Shown piece by piece: positions 3,846 to 50,273 of a stretch of DNA of 64,000 bases. The stretch is taken from contig NZ_BSTF01000021.1 of assembly GCF_030269365.1 (NCBI RefSeq), forward strand, positions 62,001 through 126,000. Reading direction: 5' to 3'. Numbering within the stretch: position 1 is the stretch's first letter; each line of letters opens with the position of its first letter. Under the pieces are notes generated by a model, which saw nothing but the letters and a program-made list of their open reading frames with translations, searched no databases and was not told the DNA's origin. The stretch is from Lentzea sp. NBRC 102530 (GTDB lineage Bacteria > Actinomycetota > Actinomycetes > Mycobacteriales > Pseudonocardiaceae). Position numbers and translations under genes: made by a program.

Positions 3846-5642
3846 GTGAACAAGATGCGACGCACGAGTGTGTGCGCCGCGGCAGTTTCCGCCGCCGTGC
3901 TCAGCGTTGTCGCCCCATCGGCGACCGCTGCCCCCGCCCAGATCCAGTCCCAGCCGGACTCGACCCAGGTGAACCGTCCCTTCGAGCGACTGATCGTCGG
4001 CTACAAGCCGGGCACCGCCGAAGCCTCGTCCGACTCCGCTGCCACGGACGACGCCCGCAAGAAGGGCAAGTCCGTGCACCGCCGCATGTCGAGCGGCGCG
4101 GTCGTCGTCGACCTCGGGTCGAAGACCACGAACGCGGACAACACGATCCAGGCGTTCAAGAACGACCCGAAGGTCGCCTACGTCGAGCCGGACCTGCTGA
4201 TGCAGCCGTTCGCCGACCCGAACGACACCGAGTACTCCCGGCAGTGGGACCTGTTCGAGGCCACCGCGGGCATGAACGTGCCCGGTGCGTGGTCCAGCTC
4301 CACCGGTGCGGGCGTGACCGTCGCGGTCATCGACACCGGCTACGTCGCGCACAGCGATCTGGCGTCCAAGGTCGTCGCGGGGTACGACTTCGTCTCCGAC
4401 TCGGCTCGTGCCCGCGACAACAACGGCCGCGACTCCAACCCGGCCGACGAGGGTGACTGGACCGCGCGCGGTGAGTGCGGCACGGACGCCAACGGCCAGC
4501 CGGTCCCGCCGTCCGACCAGGGGTCGTCCTGGCACGGCACGCACGTCGCGGGCACCATCGCCGCGGCCACCAACAACGGCAAGGGCATCGCGGGCATCGC
4601 CTACGACGCCAAGATCCAGCCGTTGCGCGTGCTCGCCAAGTGCGGTGGCGCCACCTCGGACATCGCCGACGCGATCACCTGGGCGTCCGGCGGAACGGTG
4701 AGCGGCGTGCCCGCGAACCAGAACGTCGCCAAGGTCATCAACATGTCGCTGGGCGGTCAGTCGTCCTGCTCCACGACCTACCAGAACGCGATCAACGGCG
4801 CCATCAACCGCGGCACCACGGTCGTCGTCGCGGCGGGCAACTCGAACATGAACGTCGCCAACTTCACCCCGGCGAACTGCAACGGCGTCATCACCGTCGC
4901 GGCCTCCTCCCGTGAGGGCAACAAGGCGTTCTACTCGAACTTCGGCACCCGCATCGACATCGCCGCCCCCGGTGGCGAGACCCGGCGCGGCACCGACACC
5001 CCCGGCACCATCACCACGCCGGAGAACGGCATCTGGTCCACGCTGAACGCGGGCACCACCACCCCCGGTGCCGAGAACTACAAGCCCTACCAGGGCACCT
5101 CGATGGCGGCCCCGCACATCGCGGGCCTCGCGGCGCTGCTCGTCGCCAAGAAGCCCTCGCTGACGCCGGCCCAGATCAAGGACCTGATCAAGACGAACTC
5201 CCGTCCGCTGCCGGGCACCTGCTCCGGCGGGTGTGGCGCGGGCCTCGCGGACGCGGCCAAGACCGTCGCGGCCGTCGACACCACGCCGCCGCCCTCCGGT
5301 GGCCTGGAGAACACGACCGACGTGGCCATCCCGGACCGCGGCGCGGCCGTGACGTCGTCGATCACCTCGACGCTGTCGGGCAACGCCTCCTCCACCACCA
5401 AGGTCGGCGTGGACATCGTCCACACCTACCGCGGTGACCTGGTGATCGACCTGGTCGCGCCGGACGGCACCGCCTACCGGCTGAAGAACTCGTCCACTTC
5501 GGACAGTGCCGACAACGTGGTGGCGACCTACACGGTCAACGCCTCGTCCGAGGTCGCGGCGGGCACGTGGAAGCTGCGGGTCCAGGACGTGTACTCCGGT
5601 GACACCGGGTACATCAACTCCTGGAACCTGACCCTGCGATAG
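3846..5642 (+). CDS. secreted subtilisin-like serine protease (S8) with C-terminal P-domain
   Basis: This 598-aa preproenzyme has a signal peptide ending near ATAAPAQ, an I9-type propeptide (about 45-130, RLIVGYKPGTAEA and AYVEPDLLMQ), the S8 catalytic domain and a proprotein-convertase P-domain (about 486-598). The triad is visible: Asp163 in VAVIDTGY, His230 in WHGTHVAG and Ser419 in YQGTSMAAPH. The enzyme should mature by autocleavage and act outside the cell. I chose GTG at 3846 because AAGGA lies 6 bases upstream and the signal peptide then begins properly (MNKMRR); an in-frame ATG at 3753 would add 31 residues with no secretory character. Cysteine pairs in the catalytic domain suggest disulfides. 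A terminator follows. Confidence 0.93.
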   Translation: MNKMRRTSVCAAAVSAAVLSVVAPSATAAPAQIQSQPDSTQVNRPFERLIVGYKPGTAEASSDSAATDDARKKGKSVHRRMSSGAVVVDLGSKTTNADNTIQAFKNDPKVAYVEPDLLMQPFADPNDTEYSRQWDLFEATAGMNVPGAWSSSTGAGVTVAVIDTGYVAHSDLASKVVAGYDFVSDSARARDNNGRDSNPADEGDWTARGECGTDANGQPVPPSDQGSSWHGTHVAGTIAAATNNGKGIAGIAYDAKIQPLRVLAKCGGATSDIADAITWASGGTVSGVPANQNVAKVINMSLGGQSSCSTTYQNAINGAINRGTTVVVAAGNSNMNVANFTPANCNGVITVAASSREGNKAFYSNFGTRIDIAAPGGETRRGTDTPGTITTPENGIWSTLNAGTTTPGAENYKPYQGTSMAAPHIAGLAALLVAKKPSLTPAQIKDLIKTNSRPLPGTCSGGCGAGLADAAKTVAAVDTTPPPSGGLENTTDVAIPDRGAAVTSSITSTLSGNASSTTKVGVDIVHTYRGDLVIDLVAPDGTAYRLKNSSTSDSADNVVATYTVNASSEVAAGTWKLRVQDVYSGDTGYINSWNLTLR

Positions 5643-5660
5643 CTCCACGAGTTCGCCGAG

Positions 5661-5691
5661 GGGCGGCGCCTTCCCTGCGGGGGCGCCGCCC
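5661..5691. terminator. hairpin terminator between subtilisin and glycosyltransferase genes
   Basis: Arms GGGCGGCGCC (5661-5670) and GGCGCCGCCC (5682-5691) pair perfectly over 10 bp, followed by TTT. The element sits between two convergent stop codons and probably works in both directions. Confidence 0.75.
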
Positions 5692-5693
5692 TT

Positions 5694-6926
5694 TCACGTG
5701 CTGACCCTCTTGCGGTTGCGGTGCACGATCCGTTCGAGGTAGCCCGCGACGTCCCGCAGCGACGGCAGACCGAGCACGTGCCGTTGCGCGCGCCGCACCC
5801 CGGCCCGGACGTCGTCGCTGCCCAACGCGTGTTCGCACGCCCTGGCGACGGCCGCGGCCTGGAAGTCCTGAACCCTGACACCGAGTTTGAGGTCGTTGAC
5901 GCGATGAGCGTTGTGCATCTGGTCGTGCAGCACGGGCAGCACCGCGATGGGCACGCCCGCCCGCATGGCCTCGCGCACCGAGCTGTACCCGCCGTGCGAC
6001 ACCAGCAGGTCCGCGCCCTGCAACAGCAACGCCTGCGGGAGCTCGTCCACCAGGTGGACGTTCGGCGCCGCCGACTCCACCGGCAGGCCGCCCGTGAGCA
6101 CCACCGCCTCGCAGTCCACAGCGGACAGACCACGCGCGATCGCCTCCAGGTGCGCGAGCGGCGAGCGTTCCAGGGCCTGGACGGGCAACGCGTCGAAGTC
6201 GAACAGGCCCAGCGCCGACTCGGACTCGAACACCCCGCCCGACGCGACGGTCGAGGCCACCACCAGCGGCCGCGCCGGGTCGAGGTCGGCGAGCCACTGC
6301 GGCAGCCGTTCGCCAGGGCTGTGCTGGGCGGGCTGCTGGAACGCGAACGCGGGCGGCATCGGCTGGCGGGCGAACGAGTAGCCCGGCGGCACCGAGTCGA
6401 GCCGCCCGTACCGGTGCGCCGAGTCGAGGGACTCGTGCAGCGGCTGCCGCAGTTCCGCTCGGCGTTCGTTCAGGGCGTTCAGCAACGTCAGCCGGTCCAC
6501 GTACTGCCCGACGCCCGTCGGCGCCGTCACGTGCGGGATGCCGAGCCGTTCGGCGACGAGCAGTCCCGCGAACTCGATGCCCTCCCGCAACACCAGGTGC
6601 GGCCGGAACTCCGCGGCCACCGGCAGCAACGCCTCCACGGCCGCCGCGATGTGCGGGCCCGCCGCCAGCTCGACGATCATCTCGTCGGAGAACGGGTCGT
6701 AGTCCGCCGGGAGCGTCAGGACCTCGCCCTGCAGCAGGTCGGCGAGCTGGTCGACGACCTCGGGGAACACCGGCGCGGTGGCGACCGGCTCGTCGGCGAG
6801 GCCGCGCAGCACCGACCCGGGACCCGCCACCAGGACCTCGTGGCCGAGCGAGGCGAGCATGGCGGTGAGGGGCAGTGACGTGTGCGCGTGGGCGGCCGAG
6901 AACGCGACGGTGCACAACACGCGCAC
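5694..6926 (-). CDS. GT1-family (macrolide-type) glycosyltransferase
   Basis: This 410-aa protein has the UDP/dNDP-glycosyltransferase fold. The N-terminal half has the usual opening strand with a Gly-His-Glu turn (LASLGHEVLVAGPG). The C-terminal nucleotide-sugar site is visible as LLVSHGGYSSVREAMRAGVP followed by PVLHDQMHNAHRV. It should transfer an activated sugar to a small hydrophobic acceptor such as a polyketide or lipid. GGAGGA upstream supports the GTG start at 6926. It is divergently arranged with a PIG-L deacetylase (96-bp gap). That pair could modify an amino sugar, but this is inference and no biosynthetic cluster surrounds them. Confidence 0.88.
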   Translation of the reverse strand: MRVLCTVAFSAAHAHTSLPLTAMLASLGHEVLVAGPGSVLRGLADEPVATAPVFPEVVDQLADLLQGEVLTLPADYDPFSDEMIVELAAGPHIAAAVEALLPVAAEFRPHLVLREGIEFAGLLVAERLGIPHVTAPTGVGQYVDRLTLLNALNERRAELRQPLHESLDSAHRYGRLDSVPPGYSFARQPMPPAFAFQQPAQHSPGERLPQWLADLDPARPLVVASTVASGGVFESESALGLFDFDALPVQALERSPLAHLEAIARGLSAVDCEAVVLTGGLPVESAAPNVHLVDELPQALLLQGADLLVSHGGYSSVREAMRAGVPIAVLPVLHDQMHNAHRVNDLKLGVRVQDFQAAAVARACEHALGSDDVRAGVRRAQRHVLGLPSLRDVAGYLERIVHRNRKRVST

Positions 6927-12444: not shown

Positions 12445-13830
12445 TCACCACGGGGAAGGCGCGTAGTCCTTCAGGAAGCACCCGTACAGGTCCTCGCCCG
12501 CCTCGCCGCGCACGATCGGGTCGTACACCCGGGCCGCGCCGTCGACCAGGTCCAACGGGGCGTGGAAGCCCTCCTCGGCCAGCCGCAGCTTCATCGGGTG
12601 CGGACGCTCGTCGGTGATCCAGCCGGTGTCGACGGCCGTCATCAGGATGCCGTCGGCCTGCAGCATCTCCTCGGCGCTGGTGCGCGTCAACATGTTCAGG
12701 GCGGCCTTGGCCATGTTGGTGTGCGGGTGTCCCGAACCCTTGTAGGCGCGCGAGAACTGCCCCTCCATCGCCGACACGTTCACCACGTACTTGCGGCGGT
12801 ACGACGACTTCGCCATCGACGCGCGCAGGCGGGAGATCAGCAGGAACGGCGCGGTCGAGTTGCAGAGCTGCACTTCCAGCAGTTCGACCGGGTCGACCTC
12901 GTCGACGTTCTGGATCCACGAGTTCGATGACGCCGTGTCCGGCACCAGGCCACCGGCGTCGATGTCCTTCGAGCCCGCCATCAGCGCCAGCGTCGTCACC
13001 GAGTGCGCCTCGGGCACGGCGGTCCCCGGCAACGCGAGCTGGCCGTGGCCGCCGAACGAGATCAGCTCGGGGCGCCGGGCGTCGCCGGTCAGTTCGGAGT
13101 GCTCGGCGTGGGCGAGGGGCGCGTAGGCACCGGCGGAGCGGCGCACGGTCTGCGCGGCGTTGTTGATCAGGACGTCCAGCGGCCCGCGCGAGGCGACCTC
13201 GTCGGCCAGTGCGAGCACCTGGGACGGGTCGCGCAGGTCGATGCCCACGATCTTGAGCCGGTCGATCCACTCGTCGGCGTCCGGCATCGTGGCGAAGCGC
13301 CGGGCCGCGTCCTTGGGGAACCGGGTGGTGATCGTGGTGTGCGCGCCGTCGCGGAGCAGGCGCAGCGCGATGTACATGCCGATCTTCGCGCGGCCACCGG
13401 TCAGCAGGGCGTTGCGGCCGGTCAGGTCGGTGCGGGCGTCGCGCTTGCTGTGGTTGAACGCGGCGCAGTCCGGGCAGAGGTTGTGGTAGAACGCGTCCAC
13501 CTCGACGAACCTCTTGCGGCAGGTGTAGCAGGAACGCGCGCGCAGGAGGGTCCCGGCGGTGGCGCCCTGAGCGGTGGACACCAGCGGGAGGCCCTGGGTC
13601 TCGTCGTCGATGCGGTCGGGCGAGCCGGTGGCGGTCAGCGCGGTCACGGCGCGGTCGTTGGCCACGATGGCGGCCTTGCGCTCGGACTTCCGGAACTTCT
13701 TCGCGGCCTTGAAGATCTTCGCGGTGGCCCGGCGGACGCGCACGGCGTCGTCGTGTTCGGCCGGCAGGTCCTCGACCTGGGCAAGCACGCGCAGGCAGAC
13801 TTCCAGCTCTGCGGGGTCGATCGAGGTCAT
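12445..13830 (-). CDS. SDR-family oxidoreductase with N-terminal zinc ribbon
   Basis: This 461-aa protein has a helical N-terminal region (1-95), a zinc-ribbon-like pair of CxxC motifs (SCYTCRKRF and NLCPDCAAF, about 100-130) and a Rossmann short-chain dehydrogenase domain. The cofactor motif is LLTGGRAKIGMYIA, followed by VLINNAAQT. The usual YxxxK is replaced by the TNMAK-type sequence in HPHTNMAKAALNM, so the lysine remains but the tyrosine is absent; I recall the same pattern in related actinobacterial proteins, so this is probably a subfamily trait rather than decay. The substrate is unknown. A HAD hydrolase is divergent 35 bp upstream. Confidence 0.8.
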   Translation of the reverse strand: MTSIDPAELEVCLRVLAQVEDLPAEHDDAVRVRRATAKIFKAAKKFRKSERKAAIVANDRAVTALTATGSPDRIDDETQGLPLVSTAQGATAGTLLRARSCYTCRKRFVEVDAFYHNLCPDCAAFNHSKRDARTDLTGRNALLTGGRAKIGMYIALRLLRDGAHTTITTRFPKDAARRFATMPDADEWIDRLKIVGIDLRDPSQVLALADEVASRGPLDVLINNAAQTVRRSAGAYAPLAHAEHSELTGDARRPELISFGGHGQLALPGTAVPEAHSVTTLALMAGSKDIDAGGLVPDTASSNSWIQNVDEVDPVELLEVQLCNSTAPFLLISRLRASMAKSSYRRKYVVNVSAMEGQFSRAYKGSGHPHTNMAKAALNMLTRTSAEEMLQADGILMTAVDTGWITDERPHPMKLRLAEEGFHAPLDLVDGAARVYDPIVRGEAGEDLYGCFLKDYAPSPW

Positions 13831-13865
13831 GAACAGGCATTTTACGGGGAGTGGGGGGTGGTCCG

Positions 13866-14561
13866 GTGACCGGGCCGGAGCTGCTGGTGCTGTGGGACAT
13901 CGACAACACGCTGATCTCGGCGCGCGGGTTCGGCGGGCTGATGTACGGCCACGCGTTCCACAGCGCGTTCGGCAGGCCGCTCGAAGGACGCGTCGACCTC
14001 GGTGGGCGCACCGAGCGGGACGTGATCGAGGAGGTCCTGCGCCGGAACGGCATCGAGACCACGGCCGAAGCGCGCGAGCTGCTCGGCAACGCCCTCAGCA
14101 CGTCGTTCGAGCACCGCCGCGCCGAGCTGCCGGGCCACGGCGAGGTGCTGCCGGGGGCGCTGGAGGCGCTCGAGCACTTCGCGCACGACCCGCGCGTGCA
14201 CCAGGCCGTGCTGACCGCGAACCTCGCGAGCGTCGCGCTGGTCAAGCTGGAGGAGTTCGGCCTCGCGCACCTCGTCGACTGGGACGTCAGCGCGTTCGGC
14301 GACGACCACCTGGACCGCGCCGACCTCGTCACCGTCGCCCGCGAACGCGCCGGGCACATCCGCGAGTTCGCGGACCACGAGATCGTCATCATCGGCGACA
14401 CGCCGCACGACGTGCACGCCGCGACCAAGGCGGGCGTGCGGCTCGTCGCCGTCGCCACCGGCCGCAGTTCGAGGCAGGACCTCCGCCGAGCTGGAGCCCA
14501 GATCGTGATCGACGACCTCAGCGACCTGGAACTGCTGATCAGGAGCGTGCACGCGGTCTGA
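13866..14561 (+). CDS. HAD-family hydrolase
   Basis: A 231-aa haloacid-dehalogenase-type phosphatase. Motif I is LWDIDNTLIS (DxDxT, nucleophile plus acid), the cap region follows, and motif IV is IIGDTPHDVHAA, close to phosphoglycolate-phosphatase or pyrophosphatase relatives. It should hydrolyse a small phosphate ester in the cytoplasm; the substrate cannot be read from sequence. GTG at 13866 has a G-rich stretch 7 bases upstream; GTG at 13851 in the same frame is an alternative adding five residues. Confidence 0.82.
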   Translation: MTGPELLVLWDIDNTLISARGFGGLMYGHAFHSAFGRPLEGRVDLGGRTERDVIEEVLRRNGIETTAEARELLGNALSTSFEHRRAELPGHGEVLPGALEALEHFAHDPRVHQAVLTANLASVALVKLEEFGLAHLVDWDVSAFGDDHLDRADLVTVARERAGHIREFADHEIVIIGDTPHDVHAATKAGVRLVAVATGRSSRQDLRRAGAQIVIDDLSDLELLIRSVHAV

Positions 14562-14603
14562 CACGCCGCTGTTCGGCCCTGGTCAGGCCTCGATCACACC
14601 GTT

Positions 14604-15818
14604 ATGGTGCCCCGCATGCCCACTGCAGGCGGCCCGACAGTCAAACGGCTGTCCCAGCCGGACGCCGACATCAAACCCAAAGCCCTCGGCCTGCCCCGGG
14701 GCCGGACGGTGATCTCGGTCTTCGGCTCCACCCAAGACATCGAGACGGATCTCGCCGCGAAGTTGTTGCCGGTGCTCAGATCCGTCGTCGTGACCGCGGC
14801 GCGCAACGGCGCCGTGTTCGTCACGGAAGGCACCGACCGAGGCGTGGTCCACTTGCTGGGCATGGCTTTGCAGGCGTGCGAACAGCGCTGGCCCGTCGTG
14901 ATCGGCGTAGCGCCGAGCAGCAAGGTCCACGACCTCACCGAGACCTCCAGCAACGGTCAGGTGGCGCTGGAACCCAACCACAGCGTCGCCGTCATCGTCC
15001 CCGGTTCGGAGTGGACGGACGCGACCCCGGTGCTGTTCCGCACGATCGACGCCGTGCGCCACAAGAAACCCGTCGTCGCCCTCGTCGTTGGAGGCGAGAA
15101 CGAACGGGAGGTCGTCGACCACCTCAGCGGCGACAACCCGTTGCTGGTGCTCGCCGGCACGGGCGGGCTCGCGGACCGCATCGCGACCGGTGACCTCACC
15201 GGCGACCTCGCGGTGCTGGTGCGCAGCGGCAAGATCTTCATCGTCCACGTGGACGAGGGCGCCGGCAAGGCCGTCACCGCCCTGGAACGGCTGCTGGGCA
15301 AGGAGAAGCCCGTCAGGCCGCCGAGGATCTGGCCCAAGGTGCGCTACAAGGCACCGGACGCGCGGCCGCTGGTCGACCCCGGCTTCGTCGTCGCGTACCC
15401 GACGCTCGCCGACGCCATCCACGACGCGAACCAGGTCGTCGCGCCCGTCTTCCAGGAACTCGACGCCGAGGCCGACGTCGAGCAGAACCGCTACCGGCTC
15501 ACGGCCGTGCTCGCCATCGCGGGCGGTCTGACGACGACGGTGTTCGCCGCGTTGCAGATCTGGCTGAAGGACACGCCGTGGCCCGGTGTGCTCGTCGTGG
15601 CGGGTGGCGCGTTCGCGGCGGCCATCACGATCGTGGCGCGCAAGCGCGAGTCGCTCGACAAGTACCTCACCGCGCGCTCGCGAGCGGAACGGTTGCGCGC
15701 CTTGTACTTCGCGCATCTGGCGTCCGTCGCGCCGGCGTCCGAAGAGGAGCGTCAGGACAAGGTCGCCGATCTGGAAGCCGCGGTCAGCAACCGCAAGCAC
15801 GAGGTGGTCAGGACATGA
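14604..15818 (+). CDS. TRPM-like SLOG (LSDAT) sensor fused to SLATT two-TM domain
   Basis: This 404-aa protein has an N-terminal Rossmann-like SLOG domain of the LSDAT class (about 30-230), the cytosolic fold also found in TRPM channels. Matching landmarks are TVISVFGSTQDIE, NGAVFVTEGTDRGVVHL, WPVVIGVAPSSKV, KPVVALVVGGENE and LLVLAGTGGLADRIATG, in the order seen in TRPM proteins. After a linker come two membrane helices (about 299-319 and 325-345) and a helical tail, the SLATT arrangement of predicted pore-forming effectors. SLOG domains are thought to bind nucleotide-derived ligands, so a ligand-gated membrane effector is plausible. There is no Shine-Dalgarno sequence at ATG 14604; ATG 14616 is an alternative. 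The stop overlaps the next SLATT gene by 4 bp (ATGA). Confidence 0.8.
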   Translation: MVPRMPTAGGPTVKRLSQPDADIKPKALGLPRGRTVISVFGSTQDIETDLAAKLLPVLRSVVVTAARNGAVFVTEGTDRGVVHLLGMALQACEQRWPVVIGVAPSSKVHDLTETSSNGQVALEPNHSVAVIVPGSEWTDATPVLFRTIDAVRHKKPVVALVVGGENEREVVDHLSGDNPLLVLAGTGGLADRIATGDLTGDLAVLVRSGKIFIVHVDEGAGKAVTALERLLGKEKPVRPPRIWPKVRYKAPDARPLVDPGFVVAYPTLADAIHDANQVVAPVFQELDAEADVEQNRYRLTAVLAIAGGLTTTVFAALQIWLKDTPWPGVLVVAGGAFAAAITIVARKRESLDKYLTARSRAERLRALYFAHLASVAPASEEERQDKVADLEAAVSNRKHEVVRT

Positions 15819-16231
15819 GCGACAAGCTGCGCCAAGCCCAGTTCGTGGAAGCCTATCTGCGCCACCGCTTCCAGGACCGGCTCGACCACTACGAACGCGC
15901 CCGCAAGCGCTACTCCCGCGCTCGCACGTGGACGGTCGCGATCGCCGCCGCGCTCTTCATCGCCGCCGCGGCCGCCGCCGCCGTGGGGATGGCGGACGGG
16001 CCGCGCCGGGCCATGTGGGGTTTCGTGGCAACGGTTCTGGCCGCCGCGGCCACCGCCGTGTCGCTCTACGAGGCCACGTTCGGCTTCCGCCGCCTGGCGC
16101 GGGAGAGCGCCACCACTTCCGTTGCGCTGCAACGGCTCGCGGTGGACGGTCCCACGCCCGACGACGTGGACGACGAAAGGCTGGTCGCATTCGTGACCGA
16201 AGTGGAGTCGGTGCTGAGGTACGGCCGGTAG
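15815..16231 (+). CDS. SLATT-domain two-TM protein, partner of the LSDAT-SLATT protein
   Basis: A 138-aa protein with an N-terminal helix (FVEAYLRHRFQDRLDHYERA), two hydrophobic segments (about 40-60 and 66-88) and a C-terminal helix containing RRLARESATTSVALQRLA. This layout is the SLATT fold, which resembles the 2-TM half of the preceding protein. The ATGA overlap at 15815-15818 indicates translational coupling and co-function, possibly as a mixed membrane oligomer. SLATT proteins are predicted effectors in nucleotide-dependent conflict or stress systems; for this pair that is inference. No cyclase or nuclease is encoded beside it. Confidence 0.78.
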   Translation: MSDKLRQAQFVEAYLRHRFQDRLDHYERARKRYSRARTWTVAIAAALFIAAAAAAAVGMADGPRRAMWGFVATVLAAAATAVSLYEATFGFRRLARESATTSVALQRLAVDGPTPDDVDDERLVAFVTEVESVLRYGR

Positions 16232-49817: not shown

Positions 49818-50273
49818 GTGACCGACTTGCCGTCCGGCCTGAAGCCGCTGGAACTCGCACAGCACCTGCAGTCGCAGATCTCCCGAGGGCATGCTTACGC
49901 GCGCTCGCGCAAGCAGCGGTTCAGGTGGAAGTCCGTAACTGTCCGACTGACCACTTTGGTGCTTTCGGCGGTGTCCACGATCATCCTGGGGCTCCAGAAC
50001 CTCAACCCCTGGACCGGTACGGCGTTCTCGCTGGTCGCGGTGGTGACCGTGGTGTCCGCTTTGGAGCCGTTCTTCGCCTGGCGGTCGTTGTGGGTGCTGA
50101 TGGAGGAGGCGAGCTATCGGTTCCACCGGCTGGAGGACGATCTCGCGTACTACGTCGCGTCCACTCCGGCCGATCAGATCGATGCCGGGAAGGTGGGGGA
50201 GATGTTCGCGCAGTACCAGGAGATCTGGGACTCGTTGAGCGGGCGGTGGTTGAAGTTCCGCGACAACGGGTGA
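49818..50273 (+). CDS. SLATT-domain two-TM protein (third copy in the window)
   Basis: A 151-aa protein with an N-terminal helix (LELAQHLQSQISRGHAYARS), two membrane helices (about 45-63 and 68-88, with LQNLNPWTG between) and a long C-terminal helix EEASYRFHRLEDDLAYYVAS. This is the SLATT/DUF4231-like layout also seen at 14604-16231, here without a linked SLOG sensor. GTG 49818 is chosen over TTG 49812. The closest neighbours are the PIG-L pair across a 35-bp divergent gap. Confidence 0.72.
   Translation: MTDLPSGLKPLELAQHLQSQISRGHAYARSRKQRFRWKSVTVRLTTLVLSAVSTIILGLQNLNPWTGTAFSLVAVVTVVSALEPFFAWRSLWVLMEEASYRFHRLEDDLAYYVASTPADQIDAGKVGEMFAQYQEIWDSLSGRWLKFRDNG

Follow-up and report, generated by a model that had tools for sequence, protein, structure and literature searches.

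The SLOG and SLATT families reportedly go back to Burroughs et al. in 2015. A role as membrane effectors in nucleotide-signalled immunity is predicted for SLATT domains. That SLATT forms pores is likewise a prediction, in passages of two papers (PMC9503650, PMC7159879). Thoeris, as outlined in parts of two other papers (PMC12948488, PMC11204291), has the TIR protein ThsB together with a ThsA of either the SIR2-SLOG or the TM-macro kind. For human TRPM2, a section of PMC6759353 states that Y295 clamps ADP-ribose (ADPR), that R358 contacts phosphates, and that closure of the clamshell is held to drive opening. In the literature that could be searched, we found no experiments on the bacterial LSDAT family, whose sensor is shared with TRPM.

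We analysed a pair of overlapping genes from Lentzea. The first encodes an LSDAT (SLOG) domain fused to a SLATT hairpin (type A), and the second encodes a stand-alone SLATT protein (type B). We propose that the pair has been domesticated and acts as a membrane effector of mixed SLATT types that is gated by a nucleotide, and we give this reading a probability of about 0.5. The domains, the predicted fold of the sensor, the pairing, the ancestry of A and B, the conservation and the residue differences are results; the class of ligand, the gating, the pore and the physiological role are inferred.

The gene pair, its start and its conservation

The pair lies in a window of 64,000 nt (the whole stretch of DNA that we analysed) from a 9.53-Mb genome (Table 1). 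A TA[TG][CG]GT hexamer is found exactly 7 nt 5' of an in-frame ATG in all 37 named loci; in the window this ATG is at 14616. Because the spacing is constant, gene 1 likely starts there, on a leaderless transcript. The ATG at 14604 sits within the hexamer, and at the matching position it is missing from several Lentzea species. (Residues of gene 1 are numbered from the ATG at 14604, so the likely start is residue 5.) Gene 2 could be read in a longer open frame that begins at 15578, but we rejected this and place its start at 15815, in the ATGA overlap.

Table 1. Features of the locus, with positions in the window.
Feature	Position	Strand	Remarks
Short-chain dehydrogenase, conserved divergent neighbour	12445..13830	-	Pfam adh_short, E = 8.4e-15
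HAD-like hydrolase between dehydrogenase and pair	13851..14561	+	Pfam HAD matches
Putative -10 element TATGGT, the pair's own promoter	14603..14608	+	7 nt 5' of the conserved ATG
Gene 1: LSDAT (SLOG)-SLATT type A fusion	14616..15818	+	400 aa; 404 aa counted from 14604
LSDAT / TRPM MHR1/2-like sensor domain of gene 1	14703..15272	+	Residues 34-223
SLATT type A (DUF4231-like) hairpin of gene 1	15399..15797	+	Pfam DUF4231, hydropathy, model
Gene 2: stand-alone SLATT type B (SLATT_1)	15815..16231	+	138 aa; shares 4 nt (ATGA) with gene 1

The preliminary description had coupled the two genes, and a survey of gene neighbourhoods agrees. A match to gene 2 follows gene 1 in 29 of 29 loci from other genomes (L003-L031) and in all 37 named loci, two sets that share genomes. 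The genes overlap by 4 nt in 35 of the 37 loci and by 1 nt in the other two. Among 20 Lentzea-group sequences, the median dN/dS was 0.128 for gene 1 and 0.113 for gene 2, close to the dehydrogenase (0.112); the HAD gene, at 0.290, was above the pair. These ratios indicate that the pair is under purifying selection. Together, the low dN/dS and the constant order of the genes argue that the pairing is not due to chance.

Gene 1 is present in all 23 other same-genus genomes that we searched. It was found in 36 of 199 genomes overall, including its own, with five of these found by partial matches only. The LSDAT domain is rare in the class: only 4 of 394 genomes, again including its own, have it at E = 0.001, and three of these are above the cut-off.

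One neighbour of the pair is kept across four genera. A dehydrogenase match is present at all 19 of the loci L032-L050 and at 15 of the 16 loci L073-L088 (the sets share genomes, and the miss is at a contig end). The dehydrogenase is also found in genomes that lack a match to gene 1, with matches at E = 1e-60 in 68 of 149 genomes, so we describe the linkage as positional. The HAD gene intervenes between the dehydrogenase and the pair in Lentzea; it has no match in L043 or in the non-Lentzea loci, and it is probably outside the system.

We also noticed a second DUF4231-type protein in the window (49818-50273 on the + strand, 151 amino acids, 25.2 bits against a cut-off of 24.7). Apart from gene 1, nothing else in the genome matches DUF4231. 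Of the 23 other genomes of the genus, 21 have this protein, and a search of 80 genomes found it in no other genus.

A TRPM-type sensor and its pocket

Gene 1 matches the Pfam family LSDAT_prok (PF18171) with E = 8.7e-57 and 192 bits, far above the curated cut-off of 25.4, and profile comparison relates its LSDAT domain to TRPM MHR1/2. The predicted fold is that of TRPM MHR1/2: TRPM chains account for 49 of the best 50 matches listed, and the only other one is a ciliary tip central-pair entry (9nw3). Neither gene 1 nor gene 2 has a Pfam match to a TRP ion-channel domain; they have two-helix hairpins instead.

We counted pocket positions on a profile alignment of 40 sequences, 25 of them fused actinomycete forms and 15 stand-alone. 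W137, which aligns with the position of Y295 of TRPM2, is Trp in all 40 sequences, and G76, G80, H126, P133 and D191 are invariant as well. The set of TRPM2 contacts for ADPR (Y295, R302, R358) is not conserved as a whole in gene 1. The R302 position is Arg in just one sequence (L067), while position 188, the equivalent of R358, is Arg in all 15 stand-alone relatives and in none of the 25 fused sequences, which have Gly, Ala or Glu. So the resemblance to the TRPM sensor that was first seen in short motifs extends to the profile and to the predicted fold, but one key contact with ADP-ribose has been replaced in this clade. Loss of the R358 equivalent suggests that the ligand of the Lentzea sensor differs from that of TRPM2 or of the cyanobacterial forms.

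The altered pocket could also mean that the sensor lost ligand binding in the Lentzea clade and that the pair now serves as a membrane complex with a structural or regulatory role. The replacements at position 188 are consistent with this, and so are three glycines: positions 42 and 75 are Gly in 15/15 stand-alone forms and 0/25 fused forms, and position 165 is Gly in 15/15 and 4/25. Some Saccharothrix forms also have variable low-complexity inserts near residue 198. However, a lost function seems hard to square with the dN/dS of the LSDAT domain (0.152), with the six invariant residues, and with R146, which is present in 25/25 fused sequences (and in 2/15 stand-alone ones). We think that loss of binding is quite unlikely.

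Another explanation would be that LSDAT is an enzyme that acts on a nucleotide, like the LOG-type SLOG proteins, and that the SLATT helices merely anchor it in the membrane. Other SLOG clades are enzymes, according to part of PMC9503650, and the pocket-type residues are conserved. But the nearest characterised relatives, the MHR1/2 regions of TRPM2, bind their ligand as sensors (in the cited section of PMC6759353), and for a simple anchor there is no obvious reason why two different hairpins should be kept together. This makes an anchored enzyme very unlikely in our view.

Two hairpin types in shifting arrangements

The C-terminal part of gene 1 matches Pfam's DUF4231 (residues 289-383, E = 5.8e-6, 27.1 bits, cut-off 24.7). 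Its scores against the SLATT_1 models are below the cut-offs, with 18.5 bits instead of 26.3 for Pfam and 39.7 instead of 41 for NCBIfam. Gene 2 is above both of these cut-offs (E = 8.2e-9 and 36 bits for Pfam; E = 2.8e-15 and 56.4 bits for NCBIfam). The SLOG assignment of the preliminary description is borne out, as is the SLATT assignment of gene 2; for the end of gene 1, the SLATT assignment is probable, by way of DUF4231. We rejected the idea that the two hairpins are copies of one thing, as the first is of the DUF4231 type and the second is of the SLATT_1 type.

The two-helix hairpins described earlier were recovered in both proteins. By hydropathy, each has two hydrophobic stretches (299-317 and 327-345 in gene 1; 41-59 and 66-84 in gene 2), and these are predicted to be helical. 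In the model of gene 1, long helices at 266-320 and 327-373 are followed by a helix at 380-398 (pLDDT about 59-80 there); with a pTM of 0.56, the placement of the sensor relative to the hairpin is uncertain. The model of gene 2 has a mean pLDDT of 86.2 and helices at 3-60, 65-89, 91-111 and 120-136. It has no match in the PDB at E = 0.001 or better (Foldseek). The highest VIA-align Z, to an arfaptin BAR domain, is 10.6, a value inside the span stated for helical models that are unrelated, so gene 2 has no support from a solved pore.

In a tree of 42 SLATT domains, the 19 of type B all fall on one side of a branch and the 23 of type A or DUF4231 on the other (SH-aLRT 83.9, UFBoot 89). The distances for A and B are correlated (r = 0.962 over 19 taxa, with none of 2000 shuffles as high; r = 0.885 for a spread set of 9 taxa, with one of 2000 as high), which shared descent alone can also explain. 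For the spread set, the LSDAT distances are more weakly correlated with A (r = 0.512) and with B (r = 0.642) than A is with B, and L092 and L136 take other positions in the LSDAT tree than in the A and B trees.

Across genomes the three modules are joined in different ways. Lentzea, Umezawaea, Saccharothrix and Actinosynnema have LSDAT-A followed by a separate B. A plasmid of Candidatus Chlorohelix encodes LSDAT-A-B as one chain of 625 amino acids (L136, 5884-7761; the sole protein from Chloroflexota), with a match to a TIR profile (E = 3e-13) about 4 kb away. LSDAT is followed by a fused A-B in Oculatella (L091) and Leptolyngbya (L096), and the order is A-B then LSDAT in L158. In a Pseudonocardia metagenome-assembled genome (L092), LSDAT is divergent from separate A and B genes, which overlap by 4 nt. 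Near cyanobacterial LSDAT genes, A precedes B wherever both are present. Because LSDAT, A and B co-occur in varied fusions in a few Cyanobacteria, in other Actinomycetota and in one protein from Chloroflexota, the best reading of the pair is that of a single machine.

Not all loci have type B. LSDAT was found in 17 survey cyanobacteria (of 194 genomes searched). Using in-house profiles on the fetched stretches, type A was near LSDAT in 14 of these 17 and type B in none; two further genomes that we added by hand (G578 and G579) have both. We counted A at 17 of the 23 named distant loci and B at four (L091, L092, L096, L097). In cyanobacteria, LSDAT is more commonly accompanied by A alone, and A can therefore act without B elsewhere.

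TIR genes, proposed mechanism and known systems

Among cyanobacterial genomes with LSDAT, 16 were evenly drawn, and five of these have a TIR_2 match within 10 kb of it, as against 0.39 expected under uniform placement (P = 1.7e-5, a statistic that would be inflated by the clustering of defence genes, such as TIR in defence islands, which uniform placement ignores). With three genomes that were not evenly drawn, the count is 7 of 19. Beyond the Lentzea-group layout, we considered eight actinomycete LSDAT loci (L051, L092, L156-L159, L161, L162), and, as a plain count, four have Pfam's TIR_2 in the fetched flank (L158, L161, L162 and, at 29.3 bits, just over the cut-off of 28, L156). In the 23 distant loci, our in-house TIR profile found TIR in only two (L091, L093), although elsewhere it missed two weaker TIRs, in L156 and L162, and many of the stretches are short. 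The pair's own genome has 11 TIR_2 matches.

So we also considered that the pair might be a TIR-dependent abortive-infection effector whose TIR enzyme is encoded elsewhere in the genome. The layout would then be a third Thoeris-like one, with a TIR signal, a SLOG sensor and a membrane effector. The TIR genes near relatives and the 11 matches in the genome argue for this, and part of PMC10799925 says that DUF4231 is reported to be enriched in anti-phage defence islands. However, none of the 11 TIR_2 matches is on the pair's contig, TIR is rare at the distant loci, and TIR genes cluster in defence islands anyway. Also, the pair is core to its clade, constant in its place and slowly evolving, and it has lost the arginine for the phosphate contact. 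PADLOC left nine of the ten neighbouring genes (8.6-22.8 kb of the window) without a match, and the tenth is a helicase that matched several models; phages gave no match, and a search of viral contigs for close relatives found none. Overall, we consider a TIR-dependent effector to be unlikely.

As the preliminary description had noted, no cyclase is nearby: there was no cyclase model among the PADLOC matches of the ten neighbours. It had also suggested that the pair could be self-contained. The absence of TIR_2 from the contig fits this suggestion, but the suggestion is questionable, since part of the relatives are near TIR genes and a diffusible ligand could come from a gene elsewhere.

Other genes near LSDAT in distant genomes are varied. 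In the actinomycete L113/L162, a patatin-like phospholipase gene is directly 5' of a stand-alone LSDAT, and a TIR_2-nSTAND1-WD40 protein is 3'. In two more actinomycetes (L156 and L161), LSDAT is near genes for a TPR-S/trypsin-like protease and for an alpha/beta hydrolase. Beside the A-B SLATT and LSDAT of L158 is a TIR protein with a C-terminal CD225 domain (interferon-induced transmembrane type; 5336-6670, - strand), and one open frame in L157 (6276-7295, - strand) combines LSDAT with a SprT-like domain. In the cyanobacterial L138, L139, L140 and L141, proteins near LSDAT have three TIR matches each; a CHASE2 domain is present as well in the triple-TIR protein of L138 (as seen at L093).

We return to the proposal of a nucleotide-gated mixed effector. 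The pair would make up one machine, whose three modules are an LSDAT sensor of the TRPM type in the cytosol, the SLATT-A hairpin, joined to it through a long helix, and the SLATT-B hairpin, made in step by translational coupling. A nucleotide-type ligand, with its adenine ring against W137, would close the LSDAT clamshell, and the long helix 266-320 would pass this movement to the membrane. There, the helices of SLATT-A and SLATT-B would form or open a mixed assembly, which would change permeability. The system keeps a fixed chromosomal place by inheritance in Lentzea and its sister genera, untied from any nearby signal-making gene. The pair is probably a ligand-gated membrane device that is retained as core genes.

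A broader version of this proposal is that LSDAT, SLATT-A and SLATT-B make up an old bacterial machine, in which the sensor gates a mixed pore. Some Cyanobacteria, Chloroflexota and Actinomycetota would use it with TIR signalling. In the Lentzea-Saccharothrix lineage it would have been domesticated as a core ligand-gated membrane device with a new ligand, a bacterial functional counterpart of TRPM2. This version is doubtful, because B is in 0 of 17 survey cyanobacteria and TIR is in 2 of 23 distant loci.

Specialists may not expect the pairing of two hairpin types with shifting gene fusions. They may also not expect that the TIR neighbourhood of some relatives is absent, and the pocket changed, in the lineage with the core pair. 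The compactness of two genes in a one-to-one layout, the TRPM-type pocket and the natural single-chain version make the ligand of a bacterial TRPM sensor and the opening of a SLATT pore directly testable.

Compared to TRPM channels (MHR1/2 of TRPM2), the Lentzea pair has two-helix hairpins and no match to the TRP ion-channel domain, and the R358 and R302 positions are not conserved. Unlike CBASS/SMODS, it has no CD-NTase cyclase among its ten neighbours. Thoeris is alike in outline, with an ADPR-type signal and a SLOG sensor or a membrane effector, and TIR genes are neighbours of LSDAT at some cyanobacterial loci, but in the Lentzea pair neither a SIR2 nor a macro domain was matched, and there is no adjacent TIR gene (ThsB). 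The cyanobacterial loci with LSDAT and DUF4231, a few of them also with SLATT_1 (such as L091, L096 and L102), have the same modules as the Lentzea pair. In those loci, however, LSDAT is stand-alone, most lack B, Arg is at position 188 in all that we compared, and TIR is nearby in part. The prokaryotic LSDAT-SLATT architecture (PF18171) is like the pair in having the same sensor family with a SLATT-type hairpin fused or adjacent. The Lentzea pair differs from it in being core to its clade, in having a changed pocket and no nearby TIR gene, and in adding a second, different SLATT type from a coupled gene.
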